Below, piece by piece: positions 715 through 23,645 of a DNA stretch of 64,000 bases. This stretch comes from Variovorax paradoxus (GTDB taxonomy: Bacteria; Pseudomonadota; Gammaproteobacteria; Burkholderiales; Burkholderiaceae_C). Numbering within the stretch: position 1 is the stretch's first letter; every line of letters starts with the position of its first letter. The stretch covers positions 3,398,501 through 3,462,500 of the forward strand of contig NZ_JAUSXL010000002.1 of assembly GCF_030815975.1 (NCBI RefSeq). Reading direction: 5' to 3'. The position numbers and the translations under genes are program-made. The notes beneath the pieces were generated by a model, which did no database searches, was not told where the DNA came from, and worked only from the letters and a program-made list of their open reading frames with translations.

Positions 715-2235
715 TCATGCCCCGAACAGCGGCAGCAGCTTCAGGCGCTGCACTTTGCCAGACGGGCCTCGCGGCAGGTCGGTGACAAAGCGGTAGTGGC
801 CCGGCGCCTTGTAGCGGCCGAGCGTGTCGGCGCAGAAGGCGCGCAGTTCGTCCTCAGTGCAGGCGCAGCCTTCGCGCAGCACGATGCACACGCCGATCTC
901 CTGGCCGTAGTGGCGGTCGGGCACGCCGACGGCCGCCGCCTCGAGCACCGCGGGATGCCGCAGCAGCGCCTCGTCGATCTCGCGCGGCGCGATGTTCTCG
1001 CCGCCCTTGATGATCAGCTCCTTGATGCGGCCGGTCACGAAGAAGAAGCCATCCGCATCGCGGTGGCCGAGATCGCCGGTGCGCAGCCATCCATCGGGCG
1101 TGAAGCTCGCGCGCGTGGCTTCGTCGTTCTTGTAGTAGCCGCGCATCACGTTGGCGCCGCGGATCGCCAGCTCGCCGGTCGTGCCGTCGGGCACCTCGGC
1201 CAGCGCGGCGTCGATGACCCGCGCCTCGCAGCCCGAGGCGCGGCCCACCGAGCCCAGCTTGCGCAGCGCGGGGTCGAGCGGGTTGGAGAAGGACGGCGCC
1301 GCGGTTTCGGTGAGCCCCATGGTTTCGACGATGCCGATGCCGAACTTCTGCTCGAAGGCGCGGTGGTGCTCCGGCGGCAGCGCGGCCGATGCCGAGCGGC
1401 AGAAGCGGATGGACGCGGTCTGTGCGGGCCGCGGCTCTTCGCCTTCGAGCAGGTACGAGATCATGGTGGGCACCACGTTGATCCAGCTGCACCCCGTGCC
1501 CGACGCCTGCTCCCAGAAGCGGCCGGCCGAGAACTTCGGTGGCATCGCGAGGCTGCCGCCATGGGCGAGCGGCGCGAGCATGGTCACGGCGAAGGCGTTG
1601 ATGTGATAGAGCGGCAACACGGCCAGCACGCGGTCGGTGGGCTGCAGCGCGTGCTCGGCGCTGATCGCATGCGCGTTGGCCGTGAGGTTGCCCTGCGTGA
1701 GCATCACGCCCTTGGGCATGCCGGTGGTGCCGGAGGTGTACATCAGCAGGGCCACGTCGCCGGCCGCGGGTTGCGGCGTTTCCTCGTCGGGCGGTGCCTG
1801 CGCCTCGCCCGGCAGTGCATCGGCGTCGGGGCTGGCGACCAGCACCTCGACCGGCCGGCCGATGCCTTCGAGCATCGCGCGCACGCGTGCTTCCCATTCG
1901 GGCGCGACACACACCACGCGGCAATCCGAATGTGCGAGCACGTAGCGCATCTGCTCGGGCTGCGACAGCAGGTTGACCGGGTTCACGCACAGGCCGCCGT
2001 GCATGGCGCCGAGCAGCACGCGCAGCGTCTGCAGCCCGTTGGGCATGACCACCGACACCGTGTCGCTCGGCCGCGCGCCATGCGCGCGCAGCACCGCCGC
2101 CACCGTGCGGCAGCCGCGCGCGAGCTCGCCGAAGCCGATGCTTCTGCGTCCGCTCTCGGTGGACAACGCATACACCGCCTGCGGCTGCGCCGCCGCCTGC
2201 AGCTCGATCAGTTCATGAACGGTGGAGGCCGCCAC
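715..2235 (-). CDS. sauT: Acyl-CoA ligase, probable sulfoacetate–CoA ligase (SauT-like)
   Basis: This is an AMP-forming acyl-CoA synthetase of 506 residues. The adenylate-binding signature YTSGTTGMPKG lies near residue 165. A later GWLRTGDLG block, a GRIKELIIKGGENI block and a C-terminal PSGKVQR lysine motif complete the family set. In this context the expected reaction is sulfoacetate + CoA + ATP to sulfoacetyl-CoA + AMP + PPi, feeding SauS directly upstream. I chose the GTG at 2235, two bases after the sauS stop, because homology starts right there and the spacing implies translational coupling; no good ribosome site is visible. Membership of the ligase family is clear. The substrate is inferred from the neighbouring sauS and the nearby xsc, and another short acid is possible. 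Confidence 0.75.
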   Translation of the reverse strand: MAASTVHELIELQAAAQPQAVYALSTESGRRSIGFGELARGCRTVAAVLRAHGARPSDTVSVVMPNGLQTLRVLLGAMHGGLCVNPVNLLSQPEQMRYVLAHSDCRVVCVAPEWEARVRAMLEGIGRPVEVLVASPDADALPGEAQAPPDEETPQPAAGDVALLMYTSGTTGMPKGVMLTQGNLTANAHAISAEHALQPTDRVLAVLPLYHINAFAVTMLAPLAHGGSLAMPPKFSAGRFWEQASGTGCSWINVVPTMISYLLEGEEPRPAQTASIRFCRSASAALPPEHHRAFEQKFGIGIVETMGLTETAAPSFSNPLDPALRKLGSVGRASGCEARVIDAALAEVPDGTTGELAIRGANVMRGYYKNDEATRASFTPDGWLRTGDLGHRDADGFFFVTGRIKELIIKGGENIAPREIDEALLRHPAVLEAAAVGVPDRHYGQEIGVCIVLREGCACTEDELRAFCADTLGRYKAPGHYRFVTDLPRGPSGKVQRLKLLPLFGA

Positions 2236-2237
2236 GT

Positions 2238-3680
2238 TCAGCCCGCACCGTACTCGGCGAAGAAGGCGCCGAAGATGTCGTCCTCGCTCGGCACCCGTTC
2301 CGGAATCGGCCGCGACACGCGCGTGATGTTCAGGTAGTGCCGCAAGGTCATGTTGTCGGAGAAGTTGTTCTTGCCCCAGGTGCCGCAGCCCATCGACAGC
2401 GAGAACGGCAGGCCGTTGTCGAAGCTGCCGCCGGTGGCGATGCAGTGCGCCTGGTCGACGATCACGCGCGACACCGGCAGCGTGAGGCCGAGCGTCAATG
2501 CACGCTCGGGCACCGTGCTGTGCAGGCCGACCGAATGGCCTGCGCCTTCGTAGGCGTAGATGCGTGCGACCGTGGCGGCGGCTTCGTCGAAATTGCGTGC
2601 GGAATAGATCGCCAGCACCGGGCTCAGTTTCTCGCCCGAGAACGGATGCTCGTGGCCCACGCCGTCCTCGGCCACCATGAGGATGCGCGGATCCCTCGCC
2701 GCAATGGCCAGCCAGCCCTCGCGGTTGGCGCCGTCGAGGGCGGCCGCGCGCTCGGCGATCACGCGCGCCGACTGGCCGATGACGGCGGCCGAGAGCTTGC
2801 CATCGGGCCACATCAGCGACTGCAGCGTGGCCTTCTGCGCGGCCGCGAGCATGAATGCGCCGCGGTCCTTCAGCGCCGAGAGCATCCGGGCGCGCACCGC
2901 GTCCACGATCACCAGGCTGTTCTCCGACGAGCAGCTGGTCGCGTTGTCGAAGGTCTTGGACAGCAGGATGCGATCGGCCGCCGCGTTCACGTCGGCCGTT
3001 TCGTCGACGATGCCCGCCACGTTGCCCGCCCCCACGCCGAAGGCCGGCGTGCCGCTGGCGTAGGCCGCGCGCACGTTGGCCTGCGAGCCGGTCGCCACCA
3101 CCAGGTCGCACAGGCGCATCAGCTCGGCCGTCGACTGCTTGTTGACCGGTGACGGCAGCAGCTGCACCAGGTCGCGCGGCGCGCCGATGCGGTCGAACTG
3201 CGCGTGGATGAATTCGATCAGCCGCGCCGCCGTCGACCAGCCCTTGGGCGAGGGCGCGACAATGACCGCGTTGCGCCCCTTGAGCGCGTTGATGATCTTG
3301 TTGGCCGGCGTGGCGCCCGGGTTGGTGGACGGCGTGACCGCGCACACCACGCCCACGGGCCGCGCGATCTCGACGATGCCGCGCGCCGGGTCTTCGGAGA
3401 TCACGCCCACCGAGCGCGCGCCGCGCAGGTCGCGCAGCAGGCCGAAGGTCTTGCGGTGGTTCTTGCGCACCTTGTCTTCGACGTTGCCCACGCCCGTGTC
3501 GGCCACCGCCAGCTCGGCCAGTTCGCGGTTGCGCGCCGGCTCGATGATGGCCCAGCCCGCGGCGACCACGGCGGTGTCGACCTGCGCCTGCGACCAGGTT
3601 TCGTAGATGCGCTGTGCGGCGCGCGCGCGCGCCACCAGCTCGGCGATGGGGGAGGAGGGGGAATGGTTTTCCATGTGCAT
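2238..3680 (-). CDS. sauS: Acylating sulfoacetaldehyde dehydrogenase (SauS-like)
   Basis: This 480-residue protein belongs to the CoA-dependent acylating aldehyde dehydrogenase family. The catalytic cysteine is Cys250 in NATSCSSENS. A VTPSTNP cofactor-binding segment lies near residue 115, and the C-terminal GGSFDNGLPFSLSMGCGTWG region is typical of this family. The inferred role is NAD(P)H-dependent reduction of sulfoacetyl-CoA to sulfoacetaldehyde in the cytoplasm, the second step of sulfoacetate degradation. It sits between a TctC receptor gene (12 bases upstream) and the acyl-CoA ligase. Acetaldehyde or another aldehyde could be the substrate. The pairing with a ligase and the Xsc gene nearby favour sulfoacetaldehyde. 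The start is ATG at 3680; a second ATG lies two codons in. Confidence 0.8.
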   Translation of the reverse strand: MHMENHSPSSPIAELVARARAAQRIYETWSQAQVDTAVVAAGWAIIEPARNRELAELAVADTGVGNVEDKVRKNHRKTFGLLRDLRGARSVGVISEDPARGIVEIARPVGVVCAVTPSTNPGATPANKIINALKGRNAVIVAPSPKGWSTAARLIEFIHAQFDRIGAPRDLVQLLPSPVNKQSTAELMRLCDLVVATGSQANVRAAYASGTPAFGVGAGNVAGIVDETADVNAAADRILLSKTFDNATSCSSENSLVIVDAVRARMLSALKDRGAFMLAAAQKATLQSLMWPDGKLSAAVIGQSARVIAERAAALDGANREGWLAIAARDPRILMVAEDGVGHEHPFSGEKLSPVLAIYSARNFDEAAATVARIYAYEGAGHSVGLHSTVPERALTLGLTLPVSRVIVDQAHCIATGGSFDNGLPFSLSMGCGTWGKNNFSDNMTLRHYLNITRVSRPIPERVPSEDDIFGAFFAEYGAG

Positions 3681-3692
3681 GCCTGTTTGCAG

Positions 3693-4685
3693 TCAGTCCA
3701 CTTTGATGCTGGCCTCTTTCGCAAGCTTCTGCCAGCGCACGAGTTCCGTGGCCACCACCTTGCCCAATTGCTCCGGCGTGCCGCCGACGCCTTCGCTGCC
3801 CTGCGCCAGCAGCTTGTCGCGGATCTCCGGTTCCTTGACCACCGTGTTGATCACGCGGTTGAGCTTGTCGATGGTGGGCTGCGGCGTCTTCGCGGGCACG
3901 AACACCGCGTACCAGGAGTCGACGTCGAAATCGGCAATGCCCGCTTCCTGCATCGTGGGCACGTCGGGAAAGGCGGCGCTGCGCCGGGTGGTCGACACCG
4001 CCAGCGCCTTGAGCTTGCCGGCCTTCACGAACTGCGCGGCCGCGGGAATCGACACCCACAGCAGCGGCACCTGCCCGCCCATCACGTCGGTCACGGCCGG
4101 GCCGCCGCCGCGGTAGGGGATGTGCGTCATCTGGGTGCCGGTGCGCAGCTTCAGCAGCTCGCCCGCCAGGTGCCCGGGAGAGCCGTTGCCCACCGAGGCG
4201 AAGGACAACGATCCCGGCTTGGCCTTGGCGAGCGCCACCAGTTCAGCCACCGTGTTGGGCGCGAACTGCGTGTTGGCCACCAGGATCTGCGGCAGCGAGG
4301 CCACCAGCCCCACGGGCGCGAAGTCTTTCGCGGTGTCGAACGAGAGCTTGGCGTAGATCGCCGGGTTGATGGTGTGCGAAGACAGCGTGAACAGCACCGT
4401 GTAGCCGTCGGGTGCGGCCTTGGCCGCGATCTCGGTGCCGATGGAGCCGGCCGCGCCGCCGCGGTTGTCGATGAGCACCTGCTGGCCGAGCAGCGCCGAG
4501 AAGCGCTCCTGCACGATCCGCGCGATCACGTCGGTGCCGCCGCCGGGCGGGTACGGAACGATGAGCCTGATCGGCTTGTTCGGGTAGTCGGTGCCGTTTT
4601 GCGCCTGCGCAGCAAAAGGCGCGGCCAGGGTGGCGACCGCCAGCAGCGCGGCGCGCAGCCAGGGGGCGGGGAACAACAGCTTCAT
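3693..4685 (-). CDS. Bug/TctC-family periplasmic substrate-binding protein
   Basis: This 330-residue protein has an N-terminal signal peptide (hydrophobic to about residue 28, cleaved after an AQA motif). The mature part opens with YPNKPIRLIVPYPPGGGTD, the standard Bug-receptor start. Such proteins bind small carboxylates in the periplasm and normally hand them to a TctA–TctB permease, but no TctA or TctB gene is present in this window. Its place in the iclR–tctC–sauS–sauT operon suggests sulfoacetate or a related sulfonate as ligand; this is inference. The start ATG at 4685 overlaps the iclR stop in an ATGA arrangement, so the two are translationally coupled. Confidence 0.85.
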   Translation of the reverse strand: MKLLFPAPWLRAALLAVATLAAPFAAQAQNGTDYPNKPIRLIVPYPPGGGTDVIARIVQERFSALLGQQVLIDNRGGAAGSIGTEIAAKAAPDGYTVLFTLSSHTINPAIYAKLSFDTAKDFAPVGLVASLPQILVANTQFAPNTVAELVALAKAKPGSLSFASVGNGSPGHLAGELLKLRTGTQMTHIPYRGGGPAVTDVMGGQVPLLWVSIPAAAQFVKAGKLKALAVSTTRRSAAFPDVPTMQEAGIADFDVDSWYAVFVPAKTPQPTIDKLNRVINTVVKEPEIRDKLLAQGSEGVGGTPEQLGKVVATELVRWQKLAKEASIKVD

Positions 4686-5494
4686 TCGAGTCTCCTTCTC
4701 CTTGTGGTGGATGCCGGCAGCGGCGCCGAGGCCGGCACCGGGCTTGCCCGGTAGCCCAGCGTGACGCTCGCGTCGCGCGCGCAGGCCAACAGGCGGTCGG
4801 CCAGTCCGCGCGCCTGCGTCCGCGCGAAGCGGATCGAGGGCACGCTCATGCCGACGGCCGCGACCGCCTCGCCGCGCGCGTTGAACACCGGCACGCCGAG
4901 ACCGCAGACGCCCAGGCGCCATTCCTCGCGGTTTTCCGCATAGCCGCGAACGCGCGTGCGTTCGAGTTCCGAGAGAAGTGCATCGAAGCTGGTGATGCTG
5001 TTCTTCGTGTGCGCCGTGAGCGTGCCGAGGCGCTCGTGCAGCGCGGAAAGATCCGGCGCGGCCGCGGCGAGCAGGGCCTTGCCCGAAGCCACGCAATACG
5101 CCGCCGCCCGCCCGCCGACGCGCGAATAGGCGGCCACGGGCAGGGGACTGTCGAACTTGTCGAGGTAGACGATCTCGGCGCCGTCGAGCACCGCAAGATG
5201 GATGGTCTCGCCGGTCTGCTGTGCCAGCGCGGCGAGGTGCGGCCGCAGCAGCGAGCCCATGTCGGTGGCCTCGGACACCAGCGCGCCCAGCTCGAACAGG
5301 CGCAGGCTCGGGCGGTAGGCGCTGGTGGCCGGGTCCTGCACGGCCCAGCCGCAATCGACCAGGGTCTGCAGCGTGCGGTGCGCATTGCTGCGCGCCATGC
5401 CGAAGGCCTGGGCCAGGTCGGTGACGCGGCAGTCGCGCTGTTGCCGCGTCATCCATTCGATGGCGGCAAGGCCTTTGGCGAGGGTGGAATCCAT
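4682..5494 (-). CDS. IclR-family transcriptional regulator (sauST operon)
   Basis: A 270-residue IclR-type protein. The N-terminal winged helix-turn-helix covers about residues 1–65, with the recognition segment around MARSNAHRTLQTL. The IclR effector domain follows, including a GRAAAYCVASGKALLA segment characteristic of the family. It is the first gene of the iclR–tctC–sauS–sauT operon, so it probably controls its own expression along with the transport and ligase genes in response to sulfoacetate or a CoA derivative. Alternating GTTCC/GGAAC half-sites lie 13 bases upstream of its start at 5507–5531 and are the likely operator. The C-terminal tail is arginine-rich and low in complexity. Confidence 0.85.
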   Translation of the reverse strand: MDSTLAKGLAAIEWMTRQQRDCRVTDLAQAFGMARSNAHRTLQTLVDCGWAVQDPATSAYRPSLRLFELGALVSEATDMGSLLRPHLAALAQQTGETIHLAVLDGAEIVYLDKFDSPLPVAAYSRVGGRAAAYCVASGKALLAAAAPDLSALHERLGTLTAHTKNSITSFDALLSELERTRVRGYAENREEWRLGVCGLGVPVFNARGEAVAAVGMSVPSIRFARTQARGLADRLLACARDASVTLGYRASPVPASAPLPASTTRRRRLE

Positions 5495-5506
5495 GAGGCT
5501 TTAGAT

Positions 5507-5531
5507 GTTCCGAATATTGGAACGTTGTTCC
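5507..5531. promoter_or_regulatory. Candidate IclR operator: alternating GTTCC/GGAAC half-sites
   Basis: The segment reads GTTCC, 7 bases, GGAAC, 3 bases, GTTCC. The first pair forms a 17-base near-palindrome (5507–5523). The second pair, GGAAC-GTT-GTTCC (5519–5531), is perfect. It lies just upstream of the iclR start codon at 5494. A TTGACA box on the minus strand at 5575–5570 could be the matching −35 element. Binding by the adjacent IclR protein is inferred from position and symmetry. Confidence 0.5.
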
Positions 5532-5620
5532 TGGATATGAGACGCAATGTTTGGACTGATCGTCCGGTTTGTCAATCGGGGACTTGGATGTAGGTCTAAA
5601 CGTTTCAGGTCTTGCTTTTT

Positions 5621-5712
5621 TTCAGGGCGCGTGCACAGGCCACCGGGTACTCCCCTCCGCGCGGGGGACATTCGCGGAGCAAGGTACCCCGTCGGCGGGA
5701 GCGCGCCCTGAA
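5621..5712. repeat. GC-rich palindromic intergenic element
   Basis: This element is bounded by a perfect 11-base inverted repeat (5621–5631 TTCAGGGCGCG and 5702–5712 CGCGCCCTGAA). Inner complementary stretches include GGTAC blocks and a CCTCCGCG/CGCGGAG pair. It lies between the convergent-looking 3' end of cobT and the 5' side of the IclR operon. Its form suggests a dispersed interspersed repeat, which would need a genome comparison to confirm. It could fold into a long RNA hairpin and help end transcription. Confidence 0.5.
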
Positions 5713-5744
5713 CAGCAGCGCCCCGATAGACCACAGACAGTCAA

Positions 5745-7496
5745 TCAGCGCCTGTGCCGCCCCGCCATCAAATCAATCACTTCGCGGAAGATCGTGTTAC
5801 CGGTAGACGTTGCAAGGTCGAGCACATGGCTGCGGCTGTAGTACGGACTCAGGTCGAGGCCGACCCCAACACCCGCGATCTCGATGTCGCCGCGCTGCTC
5901 CTGCCGCGCCACCACGTCGCGCAGGTGATGGTCGAGGTAGTGCGCGTCGTTGGCCAGGTGCGTGGCGCTGTCCATCGGCGAACCGTCGGAAATCACCAGC
6001 AGCAGCTTGCGCGCCTCCGGCCGCTGGCGCAGGCGCGCGCAGGCCCAGTCGACCGCCTCGCCGTCGATGCCTTCGCGGAACAGGTCGGCCTTCAGCAGCG
6101 CGGCCATCGCCGGGCGCGCGCGGCGCCAGGGCGTGGCGGCGGCCTTGAAGACGATGTGGCAGCGCTCGTTGAGGCGGCCGGGGTGAGCGGGTTTGCCGGC
6201 GCGCACCCACTCGCGCTGCGCACGGCCGCCATTCCAGGCGCCGGTGGTGAAGCCCAGCACCTCGCTGGCCGCGCCGGCCTGCTCGAGCGCGCGTGCGAAC
6301 ACGTCGGCCATCATCGCGACCGATTCGGCATGCTCTTTCATCGAACCCGAGCAGTCGATCAGGAACGTCACGATGCAGTCGGCCGCCGGCTCCATGCGTT
6401 CGGTCCGGAACAGGCGGCGCTCGGTCGGCGAGGCCACGAGTTGCGCGAGCCGGCGGCCGTCGATCAGGCCTTCCTCTTGGCCGCCGTCCCAGCCGTCGCG
6501 CGTGGGGTCGGCCAGCAGCGCGCGCAGCTCGCGCGCCAGGCGGGCGATGTTCACGCCCTGCGCGGCGATGCGGCGGTCGAGCTTCTCGCGGTGGCCGGCG
6601 AGCACCTCCCTGCGCGCGAGCGCGGCGGCGTCGTGTTCGCGGTCGTAGGCGGCGGTGAAGACGCGGTAGGCGCCGCCCGCGTCGTCAAGCACGGCGCTGC
6701 GGCCCGATTCGGCGGTGGTGAAGCGCTCGATGATCTCCTGGTCCATGTCGGCGACGAGGCTGAAGACGCTGCGCTTGTCGTCCACATGCGGGTCGCGCGC
6801 GGCCTCGCTTTCGCCTCCGGCCTCGTGCAGCATCGCGGCCACGGTGCGCGCGATCGACAGCGCATGCACCGCATAGGCCGCCTGGTCGGCACGGTCGCGG
6901 CGTAGGCCGGCCAGCTGGTGGCCGATCAGCGGCGCGAGCGCGAAGCGCGTGGCTTCGAGCATGTCCTCGGTTTCTTCCACCACCTGCTGGCCGCTCACGC
7001 GGGCGCGGCAGATCTGCGCCACGGCATAGAGCAGCAGGCCGCGCGCGGTGTCGGTCAGCCCCGAATGGTGGAAGGCCAGCGACCACTGTTCATGGCGATG
7101 CCGAAGGTTGCGGCGCATGCCCGCCATGATGTCGGGCACCATCGCTTCGGCGCGGAACTGCTCGAACATTTCGAACAGCATGCGCTCGACCGGATCCCCG
7201 GGCCGCAGGCTTTCGTGCAGCGCGGCATCGGATGCCGTGAGCCGCAGCGCCAATCCGTCGGCCACGCCGCGAAACGAGGCGAAGTCGTCGATCTCGGGCG
7301 AGGGATGCAGGTGCGGTGCGAACCACGGCAGCGCCACGCGGCCGCGATGCAGGCGCCGGCCGCGAAAGTGCAGGTCGCGCTCGCCGCTGAGGGCGCGCAC
7401 CACGCCCGCGCAGAGTTCGGCCACCTGTTCCTCCTGCCGCACGCGGCGCTGCATGGCGCTGGCAGATGCAGTGGCGGGGGCAGGCGCGTCGGTCAT
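5745..7496 (-). CDS. cobT: CobT-like VWA-domain protein (orphan cobaltochelatase subunit homologue)
   Basis: This 583-residue protein has an N-terminal CobT-type helical region. A C-terminal von Willebrand factor A domain carries the metal-ion-dependent adhesion motif DCSGS (within FLIDCSGSMKEH) and a later LLLVISDGSPMD segment. In aerobic cobaltochelatase, CobT forms a chaperone-like complex with the AAA+ ATPase CobS and works with CobN to insert cobalt into the corrin ring. No cobN or other cobalamin gene lies in this window. The start ATG at 7496 overlaps the cobS stop (ATGA), so the two are translationally coupled. The sulfonate locus around it makes a role in activating another metalloprotein or enzyme possible, but that is speculation. 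Confidence 0.8.
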   Translation of the reverse strand: MTDAPAPATASASAMQRRVRQEEQVAELCAGVVRALSGERDLHFRGRRLHRGRVALPWFAPHLHPSPEIDDFASFRGVADGLALRLTASDAALHESLRPGDPVERMLFEMFEQFRAEAMVPDIMAGMRRNLRHRHEQWSLAFHHSGLTDTARGLLLYAVAQICRARVSGQQVVEETEDMLEATRFALAPLIGHQLAGLRRDRADQAAYAVHALSIARTVAAMLHEAGGESEAARDPHVDDKRSVFSLVADMDQEIIERFTTAESGRSAVLDDAGGAYRVFTAAYDREHDAAALARREVLAGHREKLDRRIAAQGVNIARLARELRALLADPTRDGWDGGQEEGLIDGRRLAQLVASPTERRLFRTERMEPAADCIVTFLIDCSGSMKEHAESVAMMADVFARALEQAGAASEVLGFTTGAWNGGRAQREWVRAGKPAHPGRLNERCHIVFKAAATPWRRARPAMAALLKADLFREGIDGEAVDWACARLRQRPEARKLLLVISDGSPMDSATHLANDAHYLDHHLRDVVARQEQRGDIEIAGVGVGLDLSPYYSRSHVLDLATSTGNTIFREVIDLMAGRHRR

Positions 7497-8476
7497 TCGC
7501 GCGGTCCCGACAGCTCGTGCGACTCCTTCAGTTCCTGGTCGAAGCAGCGCTGGAAGTATTCGGCCACCAGGGGCCGCTCCGCGTCGTCGCACTTGTTGAC
7601 GAAGGACAGCCGAAACGCGAGTGCCGGGTCCTTGAAGATCTCGACGTTCTCGGCCCAGGTGATCACGGTGCGCGGCGACATCAGCGTCGAGAGGTCGCCG
7701 GCCGCGAAGCCCTTGCGCGTGAGATCGGCTACGGCCACCATCGATGCGACCAGCGTGCGGCCCGCGTCGCCCGCCAGCGACGGCACGCGCGCCTGCACGA
7801 TCGCGATCTCTTCGCCGGCCGGCAGGTAGTTGAGCGAAGCGACGATGTTCCAGCGGTCGATCTGTGCATGGTTGAGCCGCTGCGCGCCGTGGTACAGGCC
7901 GTTGAGGTTGCCCAGCCCCACTGTGTTGGCGGTGGCGAACAGGCGGAAGAAGGGATGCGGGCGCAGCACCTTGTTCTGGTCCATCAGCGTGAACTTGCCG
8001 TCCCGCTCCAGGATGCGCTGGATCACGAACATCACGTCGGGCCGGCCCGCGTCGTACTCGTCGAACACCAGCGCCACCGGCCGCTGCAGCGACCACGGCA
8101 CGATGCCTTCCTGGAACTCGGTGACCTGCTGGCCCTCGCGCAGCACGACCGCGTCCTTGCCCACGAGGTCGAGCCGGCTGATGTGGCCGTCGAGGTTCAG
8201 GCGCACGCAGGGCCAGTTCAGCCGCGCCGCCACCTGTTCGATGTGGCTCGACTTGCCGGTGCCGTGCAGCCCCTGCACCATCACGCGCCGGTCGCGCATG
8301 AAGCCCGCGAGGATGGCGAGCGTCACGTCGGGGTTGAAGCGGTAGACCGCATCCACTTCGGGCACGTGGTCGTCGCGTTCGCTGAAGGCGGGCACCTGCA
8401 GCTCGGTGTCGATGCCGAACACCTCGCGCACGCTCAGCATGCGGTCGGGCCGAAGGTCTGCGATGTCGATCGTCAC
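7493..8476 (-). CDS. cobS: CobS-like AAA+ ATPase (MoxR-type, orphan cobaltochelatase subunit homologue)
   Basis: A 327-residue AAA+ ATPase closely resembling CobS of the aerobic cobalamin pathway. The N-terminus has the EVFGIDTELQVPAFSERDDH block seen in CobS. A Walker A motif (GLHGTGKSS) and a Walker B motif (PVALVFDEYDAG) follow, then an ATANTVGLG sensor segment. The GTG at 8476 was chosen because the CobS-like homology begins there; an upstream ATG at 8536 would run back into the iclR gene. It lies 25 bases downstream of the IclR regulator that is divergent to xsc, so it is probably co-transcribed with that regulator and with cobT. Without cobN nearby, whether it serves cobalamin synthesis is open. 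Confidence 0.82.
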   Translation of the reverse strand: MTIDIADLRPDRMLSVREVFGIDTELQVPAFSERDDHVPEVDAVYRFNPDVTLAILAGFMRDRRVMVQGLHGTGKSSHIEQVAARLNWPCVRLNLDGHISRLDLVGKDAVVLREGQQVTEFQEGIVPWSLQRPVALVFDEYDAGRPDVMFVIQRILERDGKFTLMDQNKVLRPHPFFRLFATANTVGLGNLNGLYHGAQRLNHAQIDRWNIVASLNYLPAGEEIAIVQARVPSLAGDAGRTLVASMVAVADLTRKGFAAGDLSTLMSPRTVITWAENVEIFKDPALAFRLSFVNKCDDAERPLVAEYFQRCFDQELKESHELSGPRE

Positions 8477-8501
8477 GGTGGGCTTTCGGGAATGGTGGGG
8501 G

Positions 8502-9323: not shown

Positions 9324-9341
9324 GGGCCGGATCATAGTCTT

Positions 9342-9413: not shown

Positions 9414-9494
9414 CCGCCGGAACGAAATTCGGAACAACTGGTTCCGGCTTTTGAAACCCGCCGATCGCCCCATTCCTTTCAGGAGACGCCTTCC

Positions 9495-15460: not shown

Positions 15461-15485
15461 GATGCCTGCCATCGCGCGGGCGCCG

Positions 15486-16713: not shown

Positions 16714-16995
16714 CTACCAGCGCTTGGTCTTGATGTTCTGCACGTGCGCGTGTTCGCCGGCCTTGATCGGCGCCACCACCTTGCCCATGTCGATGCCGTA
16801 CTTCCACACCGTGTCGCCGGGCGCCATGTCCCGGAGCGCGACCTTGTGGCCGATCGGAATGTCCTGGCGCGCATCGACGCTGGTCATGCGGTCCTCGTCC
16901 ATGATCCAGCCGCTGAGCGACATGCCGGCCTTGACGCCTTCCACCACCACGACCGCGACCGTGTCCTTCGCGTCGTGCAGAACGAAATGAATCAT
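16714..16995 (-). CDS. suyA: (2R)-sulfolactate sulfo-lyase, small subunit
   Basis: A 93-residue SAF-domain protein matching the small subunit of SuyAB and the N-terminal domain of altronate/galactarate dehydratases. The central block [17 protein letters not shown] is the typical signature, followed by a histidine-bearing [12 protein letters not shown] end. It is the first gene of the suy–slc–com operon. The start at 16995 has a CAGGAGA ribosome site a few bases upstream. A TTGACA box on the minus strand at 17068–17063 probably belongs to its promoter, and a symmetric operator-like site lies immediately upstream of that box. Confidence 0.9.
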
Positions 16996-17069
16996 CGTTG
17001 TCTCCTGTTGTGACTCGCTGAGAATTTGCAGCCGGGCCAGTGTCCGAGTGCGCGTCTCCGCATGTCAAA

Positions 17070-17089
17070 CAGGTCATATGGATGACTTG
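17070..17089. promoter_or_regulatory. Candidate GntR operator between suyA and its regulator
   Basis: An inverted repeat reads CAGGTCAT, 4 bases, ATGACTTG; 7 of 8 arm positions pair. It directly abuts the minus-strand TTGACA box (17068–17063) proposed for suyA and overlaps the first ATG (17078) of the gntR-type gene. Binding by that regulator is inferred from symmetry and position. Confidence 0.45.
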
Positions 17090-17893
17090 GATGAATGGCG
17101 ACGCGGCCATCACAATGCGCCATGCTCCGCTCGACAGACATTTCCCGCGTTCGAACCCATTCACGCCGATGCGGCGGGCGCGCCGCTCTACCGGCTCGTG
17201 AAGCGTTCGCTGCTGCGCGCCATCGAATCGGGGCGTTGCGCGGCCGGCAGCGTGCTGCCGAGCGAGAGCAAGCTGGCGGCGGCGCTCGGCGTGTCGATCG
17301 GCACGCTGCGCCATGCCACCGACGATCTCGTGGCCGAGCACATCCTCGTGCGGCGGCAGGGGCGCGGCACCTTCGTTGCGGTGCACAACGACGACCGCTT
17401 CATGTTCCAGTTCTTCCACGTGGAGCGCAGCGACGGCCTCAGGCAGGCGCCGCAGGTGGAGTTCGTCGCCTTCGAGCGCGTGCGCATGGACGAGGAGCCC
17501 GCGCAGGCGCTGGGCCTGCGAACCGGCGAGCCCGCCATCCAGATCGACAACCGGCTGCTGCTGCAGGGCAGGGCGGCGATCCACGACCGGCTCACGCTGC
17601 CGGCGCTGCTGTTCAAGGGCCTGACCGAGAAGCGCTTTCGCGAGCGGCCGAGCACCATCTACCACCTCTACCAGACCGAGTTCGGCATCACGGTGACGCT
17701 GGCGCGCGAGCGCGCACGCGCGATGGCGGCCGACCGCAGCGTGGTGCGCATCCTGGGCGTGGCGCCGGGCGCGCCGGTGATGGAGGTGCGGCGCACCGCG
17801 CTCACCTTCGGCGACAAGCCGGTGGAGTACCGCGTGTCGATCATCAACACGGCGCAATACGAGTACGTGCACCAGCTGTCGCGGCCGGCCTGA
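17078..17893 (+). CDS. GntR-family (HutC/UTRA) regulator of the sulfolactate operon
   Basis: The N-terminal winged helix begins around APLYRLVKRSLLRAIESG and includes VLPSESKLAAALGVSIGTLRHA-like recognition elements. The C-terminal two-thirds is a UTRA ligand-binding domain ending YRVSIINTAQYEY. It is divergent from suyA and very likely controls the suyA–tctC operon in response to sulfolactate or a product. The start is uncertain. The ATG at 17078 gives 271 residues, and a GTG at 17048 is in frame. Both starts lie in or before the operator-like palindrome, and a TTG at 17087 is another option. The roughly 30 residues before the winged helix are not conserved-looking. Confidence 0.82.
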   Translation: MDDLDEWRRGHHNAPCSARQTFPAFEPIHADAAGAPLYRLVKRSLLRAIESGRCAAGSVLPSESKLAAALGVSIGTLRHATDDLVAEHILVRRQGRGTFVAVHNDDRFMFQFFHVERSDGLRQAPQVEFVAFERVRMDEEPAQALGLRTGEPAIQIDNRLLLQGRAAIHDRLTLPALLFKGLTEKRFRERPSTIYHLYQTEFGITVTLARERARAMAADRSVVRILGVAPGAPVMEVRRTALTFGDKPVEYRVSIINTAQYEYVHQLSRPA

Positions 17894-17908: not shown

Positions 17909-18850
17909 CTAGCGCGCGGATGGAGCGCGCGGTACGGTCGCCCCGCAGTGCCGCAAGAAATCCGCCGTCGCGCGGCCGAGCAGCTTGTCGCGGTGCATCA
18001 CCGTGGCCAGCCGCCGCATGCCGGCCGGCAGCCGCGTGCGCAACTCGATCAGGTGGCCGTCTTCCAGCGCCTGCGCCACCGTGTAGCGCGAGAGGCAGGC
18101 CAGCCCGGTGCCCGAAGCCACCACGCGCTTGATGGCCTCGGTGCTGCCGAGCTCGAAGCCCACGCGCACCTGCTCCAGGTTCTGGATCAGCCACGCATCG
18201 GTGACCTGCCGCGTGCCCGAACCATGCTCGCGCAGCACCCACGTGGCCTGCGAGAGCTGGCGGTGCGTGGCGGTGCGCTTTGCGAGCGGATGCCCTGGCG
18301 CGGCGACGATCACCAGCTCGTCCTCGCGCCATGCGCGCACCACGAGGTCGGGGTGGGTCTGCGGCCCCTCGATGAAGCCGACATCGACGTCGAACCCCGC
18401 CACCGCCTCGATCACGTCGCGCGTGTTGGCAATGTGCAGGTGCACCTGGCTCTGCGGATGCAGCGCCGTCCATTGCGACACGCGCTCGGGCAGCAGGTAT
18501 TCGCCGATGGTGAAGCTGGCCGCCACGCGCAGCGGCGCCGCATGCTCGCCGCTGAAGAGCGCCTCCACCTCGCCGGCCTGGTCGAGCAGTGCCTGGGCCT
18601 TGGGCAGCAGCGCGCGGCCGTTCTCGTTGAGCACCAGGCGGCGGCCGAGCCGGTCGAACAGCAGGGCGCCGACGGAAGACTCCAGGTCGGCCAGCGCGCT
18701 GCTCGCGGCCGACTGCGAGCGCGCGATGCGGTCGGCCGCGGCGCGCGTGCTGCCCCCCCGGGCCGTGGCCACGAACACTTCGAGCTGGCGCAGGTTGAGC
18801 CGAAGCCGCTGCGCGCTGTGCTGTTGCTGCTGATCTGTTTTTCCGGTCAT
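17909..18850 (-). CDS. LysR-family regulator divergent to soeABC
   Basis: This 313-residue LysR-type regulator has an N-terminal helix-turn-helix (LRQLEVFVATARGGSTRAAA, with AARSQSAASSALADLE-type recognition) and a periplasmic-binding-protein-like effector domain. The mid part resembles CysB/CbbR-type regulators only at family level. It starts 83 bases from the proposed soeA start on the opposite strand, the classic arrangement for a LysR activator of the neighbouring operon. The effector could be sulfite or an upstream sulfonate intermediate; this is inferred. Its 3' end faces the 3' end of the GntR gene across 15 bases. Confidence 0.85.
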   Translation of the reverse strand: MTGKTDQQQQHSAQRLRLNLRQLEVFVATARGGSTRAAADRIARSQSAASSALADLESSVGALLFDRLGRRLVLNENGRALLPKAQALLDQAGEVEALFSGEHAAPLRVAASFTIGEYLLPERVSQWTALHPQSQVHLHIANTRDVIEAVAGFDVDVGFIEGPQTHPDLVVRAWREDELVIVAAPGHPLAKRTATHRQLSQATWVLREHGSGTRQVTDAWLIQNLEQVRVGFELGSTEAIKRVVASGTGLACLSRYTVAQALEDGHLIELRTRLPAGMRRLATVMHRDKLLGRATADFLRHCGATVPRAPSAR

Positions 18851-18932
18851 CGTGAGCGATATTCTCCGCTTTTTCGTTTGATCGATGCTCTCTAACATCG
18901 GCCCAGCCCCGCATGAAGACAAAGGACCGCCA

Positions 18933-21878
18933 GTGTTCAGTTTCCTGTCCCGAGAGCCCGTCCACGATCCGCTCGACGCCCCGACACCTACGGCGGACAC
19001 CCAGGTCAAGACCACCACCTGCTACATGTGCGCCTGCCGCTGCGGCATCCGCGTGCACCTGCGCGAAGGCGAGCACGGCCCCGAGGTGCGCTACATCGAC
19101 GGCAACCCCGAGCATCCGCTGAACAAGGGCGTGATCTGCGCCAAGGGCTCGTCGGGGATCATGAAGCAGGTGTCGCCCGCGCGCCTTACGCAGCCGCTGC
19201 TGCGCAAGGCCGGCAGCGAGCGCGGGGCCGGGGAGTTCGAGCCCATCAGCTGGGAGCGTGCCTTCGACATGCTGACCGAGCGGCTCGGCAAGATCCGCGC
19301 GACCGATCCGAAGAAGTTCGCGCTCTTCACGGGCCGCGACCAGATGCAGGCGCTCACCGGCCTGTTCGCGCGCCAGTTCGGCACGCCCAACTATGCGGCG
19401 CACGGCGGCTTCTGCTCGGTCAACATGGCCGCGGGAATGATCTACACCATCGGCGGGAGCTTCTGGGAGTTCGGCGGGCCCGACCTCGACCGCGCCAAGC
19501 TGTTCGTGATGATCGGCACGGCCGAGGACCATCACAGCAACCCGATGAAGATCGCGATCAGCAAGTTCAAGCGCGCAGGCGGCCGCTTCATTTCGATCAA
19601 CCCGGTGCGCACGGGCTACTCAGCCATTGCCGACGAGTGGATCCCGATCAAGCCCGGCACCGACGGCGCATTGTTCATGGCGCTGCTGCACGAGCTCATT
19701 GCCGGCGAGCTGATCGACCATGCCTTCCTGAAGCGCTTCACCAACGCGCCGCAGCTCGTGGTGCTGGACGACTGCGAGCGCCAGGGCCTCTTCGCTTTCG
19801 ACCCGGACCCTACGCGCGGGCCGCCCGGCGACGGCCGCAACCCGCACAACAAGCTGGTGTGGGACAAAAGCAGCGGCAGCGTGAAGAACGCCTACCCCGA
19901 AGGCATTGCCGACGGCTGCGACCCCGCGCTCGAAGGCCACTACACGCTGGCCGACGGCACGCGGGTGGCGCCGTCGTTCCAACTGCTGCGCGATCGCGTG
20001 GCCAGTTGCACGCCCGAATGGGCCGAGGCCATCACAGGCATCGACGCGCAGCGCATCCGCAAGCTCGCGCGCGAGATGGGCGAGACCGCGCTCAGGCAGG
20101 CTTTCGAACTGCCCATTCCATGGACCGATGCCTGGGGCAAGCAGCATGCGACCACGCAGGCGCGGCCCGTGGCCTTCCACGCCATGCGCGGGCTGGCGGC
20201 GCATTCCAACGGCTTCCAGACCGTGCGCGCGCTGGCGGTGCTGATGAGCGTGCTCGGCACCATCGATGCGCCGGGCGGCTTCCGCCACAAGGCGCCGTAT
20301 CCGCGCCACATCGTGCCCAACTACCGGGCCTTCAACGACCCCGGCATGATCCAGCCCAACACGCCGCTCAATGCCGCGCCGCTGGGCTTTCCGGCCAACC
20401 CGGAGGAGCTGGCCATCAACCCCGACGGCTCGCCCATTCGCATCGACCATGCGTTCTCGTGGGAGCACCCGCTGTCGGCGCACGGGCTCATGCACAACGT
20501 GATCACCAACGCGGTCAAGGGCGACCCCTACCGCATCGACACACTGCTGATCTTCATGGCCAACATGGCCTGGAACTCCAGCATGAACACCATGGCCGTG
20601 CGCGAGATGCTCAACCGCAAGGACGAGCAGGGCGAGCACATGATCCCCTTCCTGGTGGTGTGCGACGCCTTCCAGAGCGAGACCGTGGCCTTTGCCGACC
20701 TGGTGCTGCCCGACACCACCTACCTCGAGCGCCACGACGTGATGAGCATGCTTGACCGGCCAATCTCGGAGTTCGACGGGCCGGTCGATTCGGTGCGCAT
20801 TCCTGTGGTGCCGCCCACCGGCCAGTGCAAGCCTTTCCAGGAAGTGCTGATCGAACTGGCCTCGCGCCTGAAGTTTCCGGCCTTCACCACGCCAGAAGGG
20901 GGGCGCAAGTTCACGGGCTATCCGGACTTTGTCGTCAACTTCCAGCCGCAGCCGGGCATCGGCTTTCTGATGGGCTGGCGCGGCAAGGACGGCACCGAGC
21001 ACCTGCGCGGCGAGCCCAACCCCAAGCAGTGGGAAGCGTATGCAGAGAACAACTGCGTGTTCCAGTACCACATGCCAGAGACCATGCACTACATGCGCAA
21101 CTGGAACCGCGAGTACCTCGACTTTGCAAAGGACAAGGGCTGGCGCCAGCGCAACGACCCGGTGCAGCTGGCGCTGTACTCCGACACGCTGCAGAGCTTC
21201 CGCTTGGCCGCGCAAGGCAAGAGCGCGGGCCGGCAGCCGCCCGATGCGCTGCGGGAGCGCATCGACACCTACTTCGATCCGCTGCCTTTCTGGTACCCGC
21301 CGCTCGAAGAGGCCTCGACCGATCTCGACGCCTATCCGCTCAACGCCATCACCCAGCGGCCGATGGCGATGTACCACTCGTGGGATTCGCAGAACGCGTG
21401 GCTGCGGCAGATCCACAGCCACAACTACCTTCACGTGAACCCGCTCACCGCGCAGGCCGCGGGCATTGCCGACGGCGGCTGGTGCTGGGTGGAGAGCCAG
21501 TGGGGCAGGGTGCGCTGCATGCTGCGCTACAGCGAGGCGGTGGAGCCCGGCACCGTGTGGACCTGGAACGCGATCGGCAAGGCCGATGGCGCATGGCAGC
21601 TGGCGCCCGGCGCGGACGAGGCGCGCAAGGGCTTCCTGCTCAACCACCTGATCAGCGAGGAGCTGCCTTGCGCGGGCACCGCGAGCGGGCGCATCAGCAA
21701 CTCCGACCCGATCACCGGGCAGGCGGGCTGGTACGACGTGCGGGTGCGCATACGGCCCGCGGAACCGGGCGAGCCGGAAGAGAGCTTTCCGCAGATGGCG
21801 AGCATGCCGAGCGCGCCGGGGGTGCTGGGGAAGGCGGCGAGTGTGCTGACGTACTTTGCGGGGAGGGGGAAGAAATGA
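18933..21878 (+). CDS. soeA: Molybdopterin subunit of membrane-bound sulfite dehydrogenase
   Basis: A 981-residue molybdopterin oxidoreductase of the DMSO-reductase superfamily. The N-terminal [4Fe-4S] cluster ligands are in CYMCACRCG and GVICAKG. There is no Tat leader, as expected for the cytoplasm-facing SoeABC complex that oxidises sulfite to sulfate and passes electrons to quinone. The GTG at 18933 was chosen because it has an AAAGGA ribosome site; an in-frame ATG at 18885 lacks one. The subunit set SoeA, four-cluster ferredoxin SoeB and DmsC-like SoeC, next to sulfite-releasing enzymes, supports sulfite as substrate. Related complexes act on tetrathionate, polysulfide or formate, so the substrate call rests on context. 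Confidence 0.85.
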   Translation: MFSFLSREPVHDPLDAPTPTADTQVKTTTCYMCACRCGIRVHLREGEHGPEVRYIDGNPEHPLNKGVICAKGSSGIMKQVSPARLTQPLLRKAGSERGAGEFEPISWERAFDMLTERLGKIRATDPKKFALFTGRDQMQALTGLFARQFGTPNYAAHGGFCSVNMAAGMIYTIGGSFWEFGGPDLDRAKLFVMIGTAEDHHSNPMKIAISKFKRAGGRFISINPVRTGYSAIADEWIPIKPGTDGALFMALLHELIAGELIDHAFLKRFTNAPQLVVLDDCERQGLFAFDPDPTRGPPGDGRNPHNKLVWDKSSGSVKNAYPEGIADGCDPALEGHYTLADGTRVAPSFQLLRDRVASCTPEWAEAITGIDAQRIRKLAREMGETALRQAFELPIPWTDAWGKQHATTQARPVAFHAMRGLAAHSNGFQTVRALAVLMSVLGTIDAPGGFRHKAPYPRHIVPNYRAFNDPGMIQPNTPLNAAPLGFPANPEELAINPDGSPIRIDHAFSWEHPLSAHGLMHNVITNAVKGDPYRIDTLLIFMANMAWNSSMNTMAVREMLNRKDEQGEHMIPFLVVCDAFQSETVAFADLVLPDTTYLERHDVMSMLDRPISEFDGPVDSVRIPVVPPTGQCKPFQEVLIELASRLKFPAFTTPEGGRKFTGYPDFVVNFQPQPGIGFLMGWRGKDGTEHLRGEPNPKQWEAYAENNCVFQYHMPETMHYMRNWNREYLDFAKDKGWRQRNDPVQLALYSDTLQSFRLAAQGKSAGRQPPDALRERIDTYFDPLPFWYPPLEEASTDLDAYPLNAITQRPMAMYHSWDSQNAWLRQIHSHNYLHVNPLTAQAAGIADGGWCWVESQWGRVRCMLRYSEAVEPGTVWTWNAIGKADGAWQLAPGADEARKGFLLNHLISEELPCAGTASGRISNSDPITGQAGWYDVRVRIRPAEPGEPEESFPQMASMPSAPGVLGKAASVLTYFAGRGKK

Positions 21879-22708
21879 TGCAGTGGCTCAAGGACCTGAT
21901 GGCCCCGGATCTGCTCCCTCCCCTTCCGGGGGAGGGCAGGGGTGGGGGCAGCGGCGTTGGAACCGGCAGCCATGCGGCGATGAAAGCCGCCGTGCCCCCA
22001 CCCCAACCCTCCCCCGAGAGGGGAGGGAGGAATGCCAGCGTACGCGCCGAACCGGGCGAAACCCTCGCCAAGCAACTCGCCCTCGTCATCGACCTCAACG
22101 TCTGCGTCGGCTGCCATGCCTGCGTCACTTCGTGCAAGCAGTGGAACACCTCCGGCAGCGCCGGCCCGCTCGCGGATGCGCAGCCCTACGGTGCCAACCC
22201 CACCGGCACTTTCTTCAACCGCGTGCAGACCTACGAGGCCGGCACCTTCCCGGCCACGCAGACGGTTCACTTCCCCAAGAGCTGCCTGCACTGCGAAGAC
22301 CCGCCCTGCGTGCCCGTGTGCCCCACGGGTGCCAGCTACAAGCGCAAGGAAGACGGCATCGTGCTGGTCGACTACGACAAGTGCATCGGCTGCAAGTACT
22401 GCGCATGGGCCTGCCCCTACGGCGCACGCGAACTCGACGAAGAGCGCCAGGTCATGACCAAGTGCACGCTGTGCGTCGACCGCATCTACGACGAGCACCT
22501 GCCCAAGGAAGACCGCAAGCCCGCCTGCGTGAAGGCCTGTCCCACCGGGGCGCGCCTGTTCGGCGACGTGAAGGACCCGGACTCCGAAGTGTCGAAGGCC
22601 ATCCGCGAACGCGGCGGCTACCAACTGATGCCGGAATGGGAAACCAGCCCGGCCAACCAGTACCTGCCGCGCCGCATCACGCAGCAGACCGCAGGGCAGG
22701 AGGAATAA
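21875..22708 (+). CDS. soeB: Iron–sulfur subunit of membrane-bound sulfite dehydrogenase, with a repeat-derived insert
   Basis: This 277-residue ferredoxin carries four cysteine clusters: CVGCHACVTSC, CLHCEDPPCVPVCP, CIGCKYCAWACP and CTLCVDRI with CVKACP. That makes four [4Fe-4S] centres for electron transfer from SoeA to SoeC. The start ATG at 21875 overlaps the soeA stop. Residues about 14–52, before the first cluster, are encoded by a palindromic GC-rich repeat (21914–22030) and give a low-complexity Pro/Gly/Arg segment not expected in the family. The insert keeps the frame, and the conserved part begins at TLAKQLALVIDLN. The gene is followed by soeC after 4 bases. Confidence 0.88.
   Translation: MMQWLKDLMAPDLLPPLPGEGRGGGSGVGTGSHAAMKAAVPPPQPSPERGGRNASVRAEPGETLAKQLALVIDLNVCVGCHACVTSCKQWNTSGSAGPLADAQPYGANPTGTFFNRVQTYEAGTFPATQTVHFPKSCLHCEDPPCVPVCPTGASYKRKEDGIVLVDYDKCIGCKYCAWACPYGARELDEERQVMTKCTLCVDRIYDEHLPKEDRKPACVKACPTGARLFGDVKDPDSEVSKAIRERGGYQLMPEWETSPANQYLPRRITQQTAGQEE
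21914..22030. repeat. Palindromic GC-rich repeat inside soeB
   Basis: This element of about 117 bases consists of CTCCCTCCCC…GGGGGAGGGC…GGGGTGGGGGC and, at the far end, GTGCCCCCACCCC…CTCCC…GGGGAGGG. The ends are complementary to each other and each end is itself a hairpin. A second copy with the same layout is at 40588–40702. At 117 bases (39 codons) it preserves the soeB frame. It looks like a dispersed repeat that has landed in a coding region. Confidence 0.7.
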
Positions 22709-22712
22709 GGGC

Positions 22713-23645
22713 ATGCATCCCGCGTTCTCCATTCTTTTTTTCACCACTCTCGCCGGCGCCGCGCAGGGCCTGGTCGTCGCGCTCGCGCTCGCGGTGCTGT
22801 TCGGCCTGGGGCTCGCGCCCGGCTTTCTCGCGCTGGCGCTGGGCGTGGCCGAAGTGCTGCTCGGGGCCGGGCTCGCGGCCTCGTTCATGCACCTGGGCCG
22901 CAAGAGCCGCGCATGGCGCGCGGTGCTGATGTGGCGCACCTCGTGGATGTCGCGCGAGGTCATCGTGCTGCCGGGCTTCATCGCGCTGGTGGCGCTGTGG
23001 TGGCTGTCGCTGCGCTTCGGCGCCGGCGCGCCATGGTCGTGGCTGCTGCCGGTGCTGGTGCTGTGTGGCGCGGCCGCGCTCTGGTACTGCACCGCCATGA
23101 TCTACGCCTGCCTGCGCTTCATCGAGGAATGGGCGCATCCGCTGACGGTCGTCAACTTCACGCTCATCGGCCTGTCGTCGGGGCTGGTGCTGGCCTGTGC
23201 GATGGCCGCATTGGCGGGCGAGTCGCGCTTCGTGCAGTTGTTCGGGCCGTGTGCGCTCGCCGCCACGCTCGCGGCATGGGCCGCACGCGGCGGGGCGCTC
23301 AGGCGGAACGCGGCGATCCGCCACAAGTCGACGCTGCAGTCGGCCACCGGCATCCGCGCCGAGAAGCTCACGCAAAAGTCGATGGGCATGTCGGCCGGCT
23401 CGTTCAACACGCGCGAGTTCTTTCATGGCGCCACGCTGGCCGGGCTCAGGAACATGAAGCTCGGCTTCCTGCTGCTGGCCTTCGTGCTGCCTTCGCTGCT
23501 GCTGCTGTGGGGCATTGCGACTGCCGCCGTGTGGCCGTGGCTGCTCGCGGTGCTGGTGCAGGCGCCCGGCCTGCTGGCGGAGCGCTGGTTCTTCTTCGCG
23601 CAGGCGAAGCACCCGCAGAACCTGTATTACCAGGTGGTGTCCTGA
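22713..23645 (+). CDS. soeC: Membrane anchor subunit of sulfite dehydrogenase (DmsC family)
   Basis: A 310-residue integral membrane protein with about eight hydrophobic segments, of the DmsC/NrfD-like anchor family. It has the HPAFSILFFTTLAGAAQGL first helix, a FMHLGRKSRAWRA loop and the C-terminal ERWFFFAQAKHPQNLYY motif typical of DmsC-type anchors. It would hold SoeAB on the inner face of the cytoplasmic membrane and pass electrons to ubiquinone. It is the third gene of soeABC with tight spacing. Its 3' end faces the convergent SMP-30-like gene 25 bases away. Confidence 0.88.
   Translation: MHPAFSILFFTTLAGAAQGLVVALALAVLFGLGLAPGFLALALGVAEVLLGAGLAASFMHLGRKSRAWRAVLMWRTSWMSREVIVLPGFIALVALWWLSLRFGAGAPWSWLLPVLVLCGAAALWYCTAMIYACLRFIEEWAHPLTVVNFTLIGLSSGLVLACAMAALAGESRFVQLFGPCALAATLAAWAARGGALRRNAAIRHKSTLQSATGIRAEKLTQKSMGMSAGSFNTREFFHGATLAGLRNMKLGFLLLAFVLPSLLLLWGIATAAVWPWLLAVLVQAPGLLAERWFFFAQAKHPQNLYYQVVS

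Follow-up and report, generated by a model that had tools for sequence, protein, structure and literature searches.

Xsc (sulfoacetaldehyde acetyltransferase) is the central enzyme in the desulfonation of taurine, isethionate, and sulfoacetate, and releases sulfite at its thiamine cofactor. In a 64,000-nucleotide stretch of the Variovorax paradoxus genome (contig NZ_JAUSXL010000002.1, positions 3,398,501 to 3,462,500; hereafter the window, whose coordinates and strands are used throughout), the xsc gene lies beside cobS and cobT, two genes of families named for cobalt chelatase. What does a pair whose name implies vitamin B12 synthesis do next to an enzyme of sulfonate breakdown? The host genome (6.09 Mb in two contigs, 99.98% complete), three taxonomic samples, and a plasmid survey show that the CobS–CobT pair follows Xsc, not vitamin B12 synthesis. 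The pair is genetically tied to Xsc and carries the motifs of a MoxR/VWA chaperone, and by analogy with CbbQO it probably serves one clade of Xsc as a dedicated remodelling chaperone of the MoxR-type AAA+/VWA kind.

The Gene Pair beside xsc

The genes iclR2, cobS, and cobT form a minus-strand row (9335–5745) between the sau genes and xsc, and because their open reading frames (ORFs) overlap, by 35 and 4 bases, they are predicted to form one operon. The cobT gene (5745–7496, minus strand) encodes a CobT-like VWA protein of 583 residues (PF11775 and PF06213) with an intact metal-ion-dependent adhesion site (MIDAS); its score against the NCBIfam cobaltochelatase equivalog TIGR01651 is 312.5 bits, below the cut-off of 759.05. 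The cobS gene (7493–8536, minus strand) encodes a CobS-like MoxR AAA+ ATPase (PF07728) of 347 residues from the longest start, with intact Walker A and Walker B motifs, and reaches 516.3 bits against TIGR01650, whose cut-off is 558.55. The third gene, iclR2 (8502–9335, minus strand, placed by start analysis), encodes the second IclR regulator of the locus (PF01614/PF09339) and is divergent from xsc (9495–11318, plus strand). Xsc itself, with an ATG start at 9495 and an NCBIfam match from about 9550, scores 1046.6 bits against TIGR03457 (cut-off 676.4). Between iclR2 and xsc lies the palindrome GGAAC-N5-GTTCC (9431–9445), which occurs once in the window against a mean expectation of 0.03 and is partly kept across 27 aligned intergenic regions; it is a plausible candidate for an IclR2 operator.

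The original prediction read the locus as a route for complete organosulfonate breakdown and overlooked both this trio and the acetate kinase gene at the xsc stop codon. It thereby omitted the gene pair that is most tightly linked to xsc across genomes.

Conservation of the Pair at xsc Loci

Of the xsc-anchored loci listed in a scan of the genome_contigs collection with Xsc, the best 80 were kept; 51 of them have 10 kb on both flanks, and the ten best named loci are all titled Variovorax, with Xsc identities of 96–98%. CobS is present in 70 of the 80 loci, within 1.5 kb of xsc in 65 and at 1.5–4 kb in 5, and it lies upstream of xsc in 66 and downstream in 4, always on the opposite strand (70/70). 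Among the 51 loci with full flanks, CobS and CobT are each found in 46, IclR2 in 40, SoeA in 21, SauT in 18, SauS in 16, AckA in 9, and SuyB in 6. With SuyB in 6 and SauS in 16 of these loci against CobS in 46, the catabolic modules vary from locus to locus while the AAA+/VWA pair is mostly retained, and a reading of the locus as merely a sulfonate catabolic cluster was rejected on these counts.

The ten loci without CobS are of several kinds. Four end within 1.3 kb upstream of xsc, and L041 is also among the ten. Another, L085, shares its contig with L084 as a second xsc copy, and CobS is present at L084. The remaining four (L075, L076, L082, and L086) come from genomes that hold one strong CobS elsewhere. 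In the genomes of the Cupriavidus loci L075, L076, and L082, the iclR2–cobS–cobT trio is intact at separate loci (L090–L092) that have no xsc within 10 kb. With the trio and xsc apart, these Cupriavidus genomes provide a natural experiment on whether an unlinked pair continues to serve Xsc.

The same loci bear on two other readings of the pair. CobS and CobT could act in the maturation of a different pathway enzyme, with the molybdenum sulfite dehydrogenase SoeABC as the most plausible candidate, so that the linkage to xsc would reflect shared sulfonate islands. The MoxR-type protein CoxD takes part in assembling the cluster of CO dehydrogenase, a molybdenum enzyme (PMC3471820), and in 21 of the 51 full-flank loci SoeA is found no more than 10 kb away. 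However, CobS occurs without SoeA within 10 kb in 25 of the 51, and xsc is the neighbour that is kept, which makes maturation of SoeABC a rather unlikely role. Alternatively, the pair could work with IclR2 in sensing or regulation and not on an enzyme at all, as the overlap of the three genes on one strand and the presence of IclR2 in 40 of the 51 loci would suggest. Yet CobS and CobT still stand beside xsc where IclR2 has moved or was not found (L187, L188, L210, and L227), and a regulatory role of this kind is considered distinctly improbable.

Co-occurrence with Xsc and with CobN

Because the 80 loci had been picked by Xsc, genomes were also drawn by taxonomy alone, from the family (n = 150), the order (n = 160), and the phylum (n = 249) of the host. 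In the first of these, CobS was counted at E ≤ 1e-80, Xsc at E ≤ 1e-150, and PF02514, which covers CobN and the Mg-chelatase H subunit together, at E ≤ 1e-80; distances in all samples are those between the ends of profile matches. The three samples overlap in some genomes, and the statistics ignore phylogeny.

In the family sample, CobS was found in 15 genomes and Xsc in 17, with both in 15 (Fisher test, 8.4e-19), and the two genes are separated by 0.16–1.15 kb in all 15. PF02514 was found in 56 genomes of this sample and accompanies CobS in 6 of 15, where 5.6 are expected (p = 1.0); the other nine CobS genomes, that of the host included, have no PF02514 match at the threshold, and the nearly complete host genome has none at all. 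The order sample holds CobS in 8 genomes and Xsc in 21, with both in 7 (p = 1.8e-6). Five of these seven pairs lie within about 3 kb; in G183 the genes are 29 kb apart on one contig, and in G115, whose CobS reaches 590 bits and passes the cobaltochelatase cut-off, they are on different contigs. The only CobS genome of the order sample without Xsc is G192.

The phylum sample separates the two associations further. Inside the class of the host, the six genomes with CobS are the same six that have Xsc, and two of them (G496 and G533) belong to another order of the class, with CobS and Xsc 0.33 kb apart. PF02514 occurs in 27 genomes inside the class, and 2 of these have CobS. Outside the class, which served as a control, all 63 genomes with PF02514 have CobS, so the search detects the pairing of CobS with CobN where it is present. 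The TIGR01650 cut-off is passed by the CobS of 80 of the 85 CobS genomes outside the class and by none of the six inside. Among the 85 outside, 22 lack a PF02514 match at E ≤ 1e-80, including the 1.5 Mb genome G417, and CobST may act independently of CobN in these genomes as well.

These results bear directly on the view that CobS and CobT are genuine cobaltochelatase subunits, or relics of them, and that they sit where they do through ancestral synteny, with no functional tie to xsc. It can draw on the 59–68% identity of CobS to CobS from outside the class, and on 34 further chosen xsc genomes, all with one strong CobS (433–550 bits), in which a PF02514 protein is present in 21 and absent in 13. 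Against it stand an association with CobN that is nil and one with Xsc that is near-perfect, the lack of a PF02514 match in 9 of the 15 family-sample genomes that have CobS, the scores of both proteins below their cobaltochelatase cut-offs, and the fact that the pair keeps close to xsc on plasmids, in another order, and under several gene arrangements. The cobaltochelatase reading, rejected on the CobN results from the host, the family sample, and the phylum sample, is very unlikely to hold.

Trees and Plasmids

Trees of CobS and Xsc were built by quick searches with the LG+G4 model. In the CobS tree, all 58 rows linked to xsc, together with three from genomes that have Xsc elsewhere, form one clade of 61 (Shimodaira–Hasegawa-like approximate likelihood-ratio support, SH-aLRT, 99); outside it stand the CobS from outside the class (98), plus those of G115 and G192. 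In the Xsc tree, 47 of the 48 linked rows fall into one clade of 55 with support of 100, which also holds two rows with CobS elsewhere, three of unknown status, and three without CobS. The single linked row outside this clade comes from L062, where xsc is present in an additional copy and the other copy falls within the clade. The remaining betaproteobacterial Xsc rows come from genomes without CobS, except for that of G115.

A survey of 72,556 plasmid records, in which CobS was typed by identity and not by tree placement, gave seven CobS matches at 76–80% identity and ten at 61–68%. All seven plasmids with CobS at 76–80% carry Xsc (82–83% identity) at a distance of 0.27–5.7 kb on the opposite strand. 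In the four plasmid regions that were read, the genes are divergent in Photobacterium and Caballeronia, and convergent in Cupriavidus campinensis and Burkholderia multivorans; the Caballeronia record annotates the pair as ‘AAA family ATPase’ and ‘cobalt chelatase’. The occurrence of the pair with xsc in another order, on plasmids, and in several arrangements argues against a simple inheritance of synteny.

Protein Features and Proposed Mechanism

The working parts of both proteins are conserved. Across 134 CobS sequences, conservation is at least 98% at the G-G-G-K-S positions of Walker A and the D-E positions of Walker B, and the MIDAS residues of CobT (D381, S383, S385, T418, and D504), which follow the DxSxS-T-D definition of the motif (PMC9976466), are invariant in 52 aligned CobT proteins. 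The two halves of CobT differ. Against four non-linked CobT proteins, the N-terminal half is 9–23% identical (the 9% value is over 46 residues) and the VWA half 39–45%; across 84 CobT proteins of the linked kind, the median identities to the window protein are 45% and 61%, respectively. A change of client would fit this pattern, in which the motor and the VWA domain are conserved and the N-terminal half of CobT diverges.

From this pattern, and from the linkage and co-occurrence described above, we infer that Xsc would be the physical target of the pair. CobT would be the target adaptor, binding Xsc, probably at an acidic surface residue, through the metal of its MIDAS, and CobS would be the motor, straining the complex upon ATP turnover so that a dead-end state is released. 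The specific role that is favoured would be the removal of a damaged or inhibited thiamine diphosphate cofactor from Xsc, because Xsc makes sulfite beside thiamine diphosphate and sulfite cleaves thiamine. The splitting of thiamine by sulfite is described in PMC8839250. That the pair is an AAA+ repair machine, which opens Xsc and ejects cofactor damage inflicted by the product, or a trapped adduct, much as Rubisco activases expel sugar phosphates, is put forward tentatively, as a possibility well short of even odds. A neighbouring possibility is that CobS and CobT assemble Xsc, through folding, tetramer formation, or loading of Mg-thiamine diphosphate, instead of repairing the inhibited enzyme. 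The genomic evidence for assembly is the same as that for a remodelling chaperone, and NorQD inserts metal while its target matures (PMC9976466, PMC13036017); on the other side, the same clade and others include Xsc homologues that have no CobST, and assembly is regarded as an unlikely function.

Several observations weigh against a chaperone dedicated to Xsc. At E ≤ 1e-80, CobS was not found in three genomes whose Xsc falls in the linked clade (G167, G208, and G299), and at E ≤ 1e-40 it was likewise not found on three Rhodococcus plasmid records whose Xsc is 84% identical, so the pair cannot be a strict requirement. In G283 (L211), CobS adjoins xsc but the 13.6 kb contig gave no CobT match, and an in-frame TGA was flagged in two CobS matches (G008 and G232). 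The similarity of CobS to its counterparts outside the class, already noted, extends to the solved structures, with 466 bits to a cobaltochelatase entry in the PDB (9ujv). Finally, a comparison of Xsc at the sequence level listed 32 clade-diagnostic positions, none of them a convincing acidic contact on the surface.

Other features of Xsc were considered as marks of a client. Its C-terminal tail, KYKDYV, was tried as a handle for the activase and dropped, since the same ending occurs in some CobST-less genomes (L173 and L174). The linked clade typically has a linker insertion ahead of the C-terminal thiamine domain, but this is shorter in L040. At otherwise conserved positions, Xsc of CobST-less genomes deviates slightly more: L180, L184, and L183 show 10, 7, and 4 deviations and Rhodococcus shows 1, where the remaining Xsc have a median of 1 and reach at most 12; as L180 and L184 are long branches, their deviations do not count as evidence. 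One of the Rhodococcus records, the linear plasmid pDK3 of the actinobacterium Rhodococcus sp. DK176 (L229), carries Xsc (84%), a phosphotransacetylase, and a SauS-like gene without CobS, and its Xsc looks like a transfer from proteobacteria.

Among the titles and abstract openings listed in searches of open-licence papers, no link of CobS or CobT to Xsc or taurine was found, and PMC4334477, in the parts consulted, mentions terms from both sides in unrelated places. If the repair reading is true, a family named for cobalt chelatase would, in beta- and gammaproteobacteria, be an Xsc reactivase. A dedicated ATP-driven partner would explain part of Xsc physiology, a naming that implies B12 synthesis in CobN-less genomes would be corrected, and the poorly understood MoxR/VWA chaperones would gain a new client. 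We know of no earlier AAA+ repair machine for a thiamine-diphosphate enzyme, and the system allows one to ask directly whether thiamine enzymes that release sulfite depend on repair of their active site.

The Surrounding Organosulfonate Genes

The claim of a complete organosulfonate locus stands as far as the presence of the genes is concerned; SauS and Xsc have support at the equivalog level, and SauT, SlcC, ComC, SuyAB, and SoeABC are assigned through families and context. For the sulfoacetate arm, SauS, a CoA-acylating sulfoacetaldehyde dehydrogenase (2238–3680, minus strand), scores 743.1 bits against NF047625 (cut-off 600) and, like Xsc, passes its equivalog cut-off. The adjoining SauT-like acyl-CoA ligase (715–2235, minus strand, GTG start) is assigned by its AMP-binding ligase family (PF00501/PF13193) and its position, and none of the 25 NCBIfam matches listed for it reaches its cut-off. 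A TctC-type solute-binding protein (3693–4685, minus strand; PF03401) and the first IclR regulator (4682–5494, minus strand; PF01614/PF09339) follow. Downstream of xsc, the acetate kinase gene ackA (11315–12520, plus strand; PF00871; TIGR00016, 347.6 bits, cut-off 293.4) has a TTG start that overlaps the xsc stop codon, and a second TctC-type protein (12504–13496, minus strand; PF03401) lies next to it. Sulfoacetate would thus be converted by SauT and SauS to sulfoacetaldehyde and by Xsc to acetyl phosphate and sulfite, and AckA could consume the acetyl phosphate made by Xsc to yield acetate and ATP. A protein with a PTA_PTB phosphate acetyltransferase domain is encoded about 20 kb from xsc (32390–33466, minus strand); with AckA, it provides two possible fates for this acetyl phosphate.

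The proposed sulfolactate arm, SuyAB with SlcC and ComC, rests on families and on resemblance to a known SlcC/ComC/SuyA/SuyB gene set (PMC12421959). The ComC-like Ldh_2 dehydrogenase (13533–14534, minus strand; PF02615) has the L-sulfolactate dehydrogenase equivalog NF040650 as its best NCBIfam match and falls below its cut-off (195.9 versus 500 bits); in the PDB, the L-sulfolactate dehydrogenase 2x06 (E 4.8e-41) ranks second behind 1wtj. The SlcC-like D-2-hydroxyacid dehydrogenase (14531–15472, minus strand) belongs to PF02826/PF00389. The SuyB-like protein (15486–16661, minus strand) has the second and C-terminal GD_AH domains (PF04295/PF20629), and galactarate dehydratase is its sole PDB relative at E ≤ 0.001. 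The SuyA-like protein of 93 residues (16714–16996, minus strand) was assigned as an ORF by its position and has no match in Pfam or NCBIfam. The Paracoccus wurundjeri module has the same four genes in one block (PMC12421959); the block here differs in sitting between ackA and lysR–soeABC, beside the sulfoacetate arm. The Polynucleobacter loci L071 and L079 have SlcC, ComC, SuyB, GntR, and CobS beside xsc in a different order.

The SoeABC assignment fares similarly. A SoeA-like molybdopterin subunit (18885–21878; PF00384/PF01568/PF04879), a SoeB-like 4Fe-4S subunit (21875–22708; PF13247), and a SoeC-like DmsC membrane anchor (22713–23645; PF04976) stand in a row on the plus strand and place the complex in the DMSO-reductase family; no NCBIfam match listed reaches its cut-off, and sulfite is the putative substrate. 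For SuyA, SuyB, and Soe alike, no equivalog model lies above its cut-off among the NCBIfam matches listed. The four regulators counted in the original prediction are all present: the two IclR proteins, a GntR/UTRA regulator (17078–17893, plus strand; PF07702/PF00392), and a LysR regulator (17909–18850, minus strand). The last belongs to the YeiE subfamily (NF008095, 327.6 bits, cut-off 281) and scores 349.3 bits against the YeiE equivalog NF040889, under its cut-off of 480. In agreement with the same account, no sulfite or sulfate exporter and no sulfopyruvate decarboxylase was seen among the window ORFs scanned, a part of all ORFs, with no dedicated model searched.

The co-occurrence of both arms with the sulfite dehydrogenase had been called unusual, and SauS, SuyB, and SoeA are found together in 4 of the 80 xsc loci (L007, L008, L009, and L011), all from Variovorax. 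Four other Variovorax loci (L010, L012, L014, and L015) have an equal gene order and lack the suy block, which makes the sulfolactate block look like a removable module. This separable SlcC/ComC/SuyAB module and the SoeABC-type sulfite oxidase would complete a modular organosulfonate island. Elsewhere in the window, just downstream of soeABC, genes on the minus strand (24659–28236) encode molybdenum and FAD subunits of the xanthine dehydrogenase/CO dehydrogenase type with an SMP-30 family protein adjacent, and a further minus-strand region (45664–52244) with a VgrG-type baseplate hub, DUF2169-pentapeptide, and pentapeptide-repeat proteins resembles a type VI secretion island.

Comparison with Known AAA+/VWA Systems

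The pair shares its AAA+ and VWA families with the CobNST cobaltochelatase, and the VWA half of CobT scores 236 bits to PDB 9uka. In contrast, the N-terminal half of CobT reaches only 38 bits to the solved cobaltochelatase chain, the host has no CobN-family protein, CobN co-occurrence is absent in the family sample, and both proteins fall below the equivalog cut-offs.

NorQ and NorD likewise form an AAA+/VWA pair that acts on one enzyme, with the MIDAS needed for target activity (PMC9976466, PMC13036017). The MIDAS of NorD is required for nitric oxide reductase activity and not for NorQ binding (PMC9976466), and a twisting model for NorQD was proposed later (PMC13036017). NorQD differs in that it inserts iron into nitric oxide reductase, and its sequence relation to the present pair is distant (E 4.5e-4).

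The Rubisco activase CbbQ/CbbO is likewise composed of a MoxR AAA+ motor and a VWA/MIDAS adaptor that serve one enzyme; CbbO grips an acidic Rubisco residue through its MIDAS, with CbbQ as the motor (PMC4660213). In place of Rubisco, the present pair has a thiamine-diphosphate enzyme as its neighbour, and the sequences are only distantly related, with CbbQ-type chains in the PDB matching CobS at E-values of 8.5e-7 and 2e-6. The authors of that study predicted that similar pairs act likewise on their own targets (PMC4660213), and CobS and CobT beside xsc may be such a pair.

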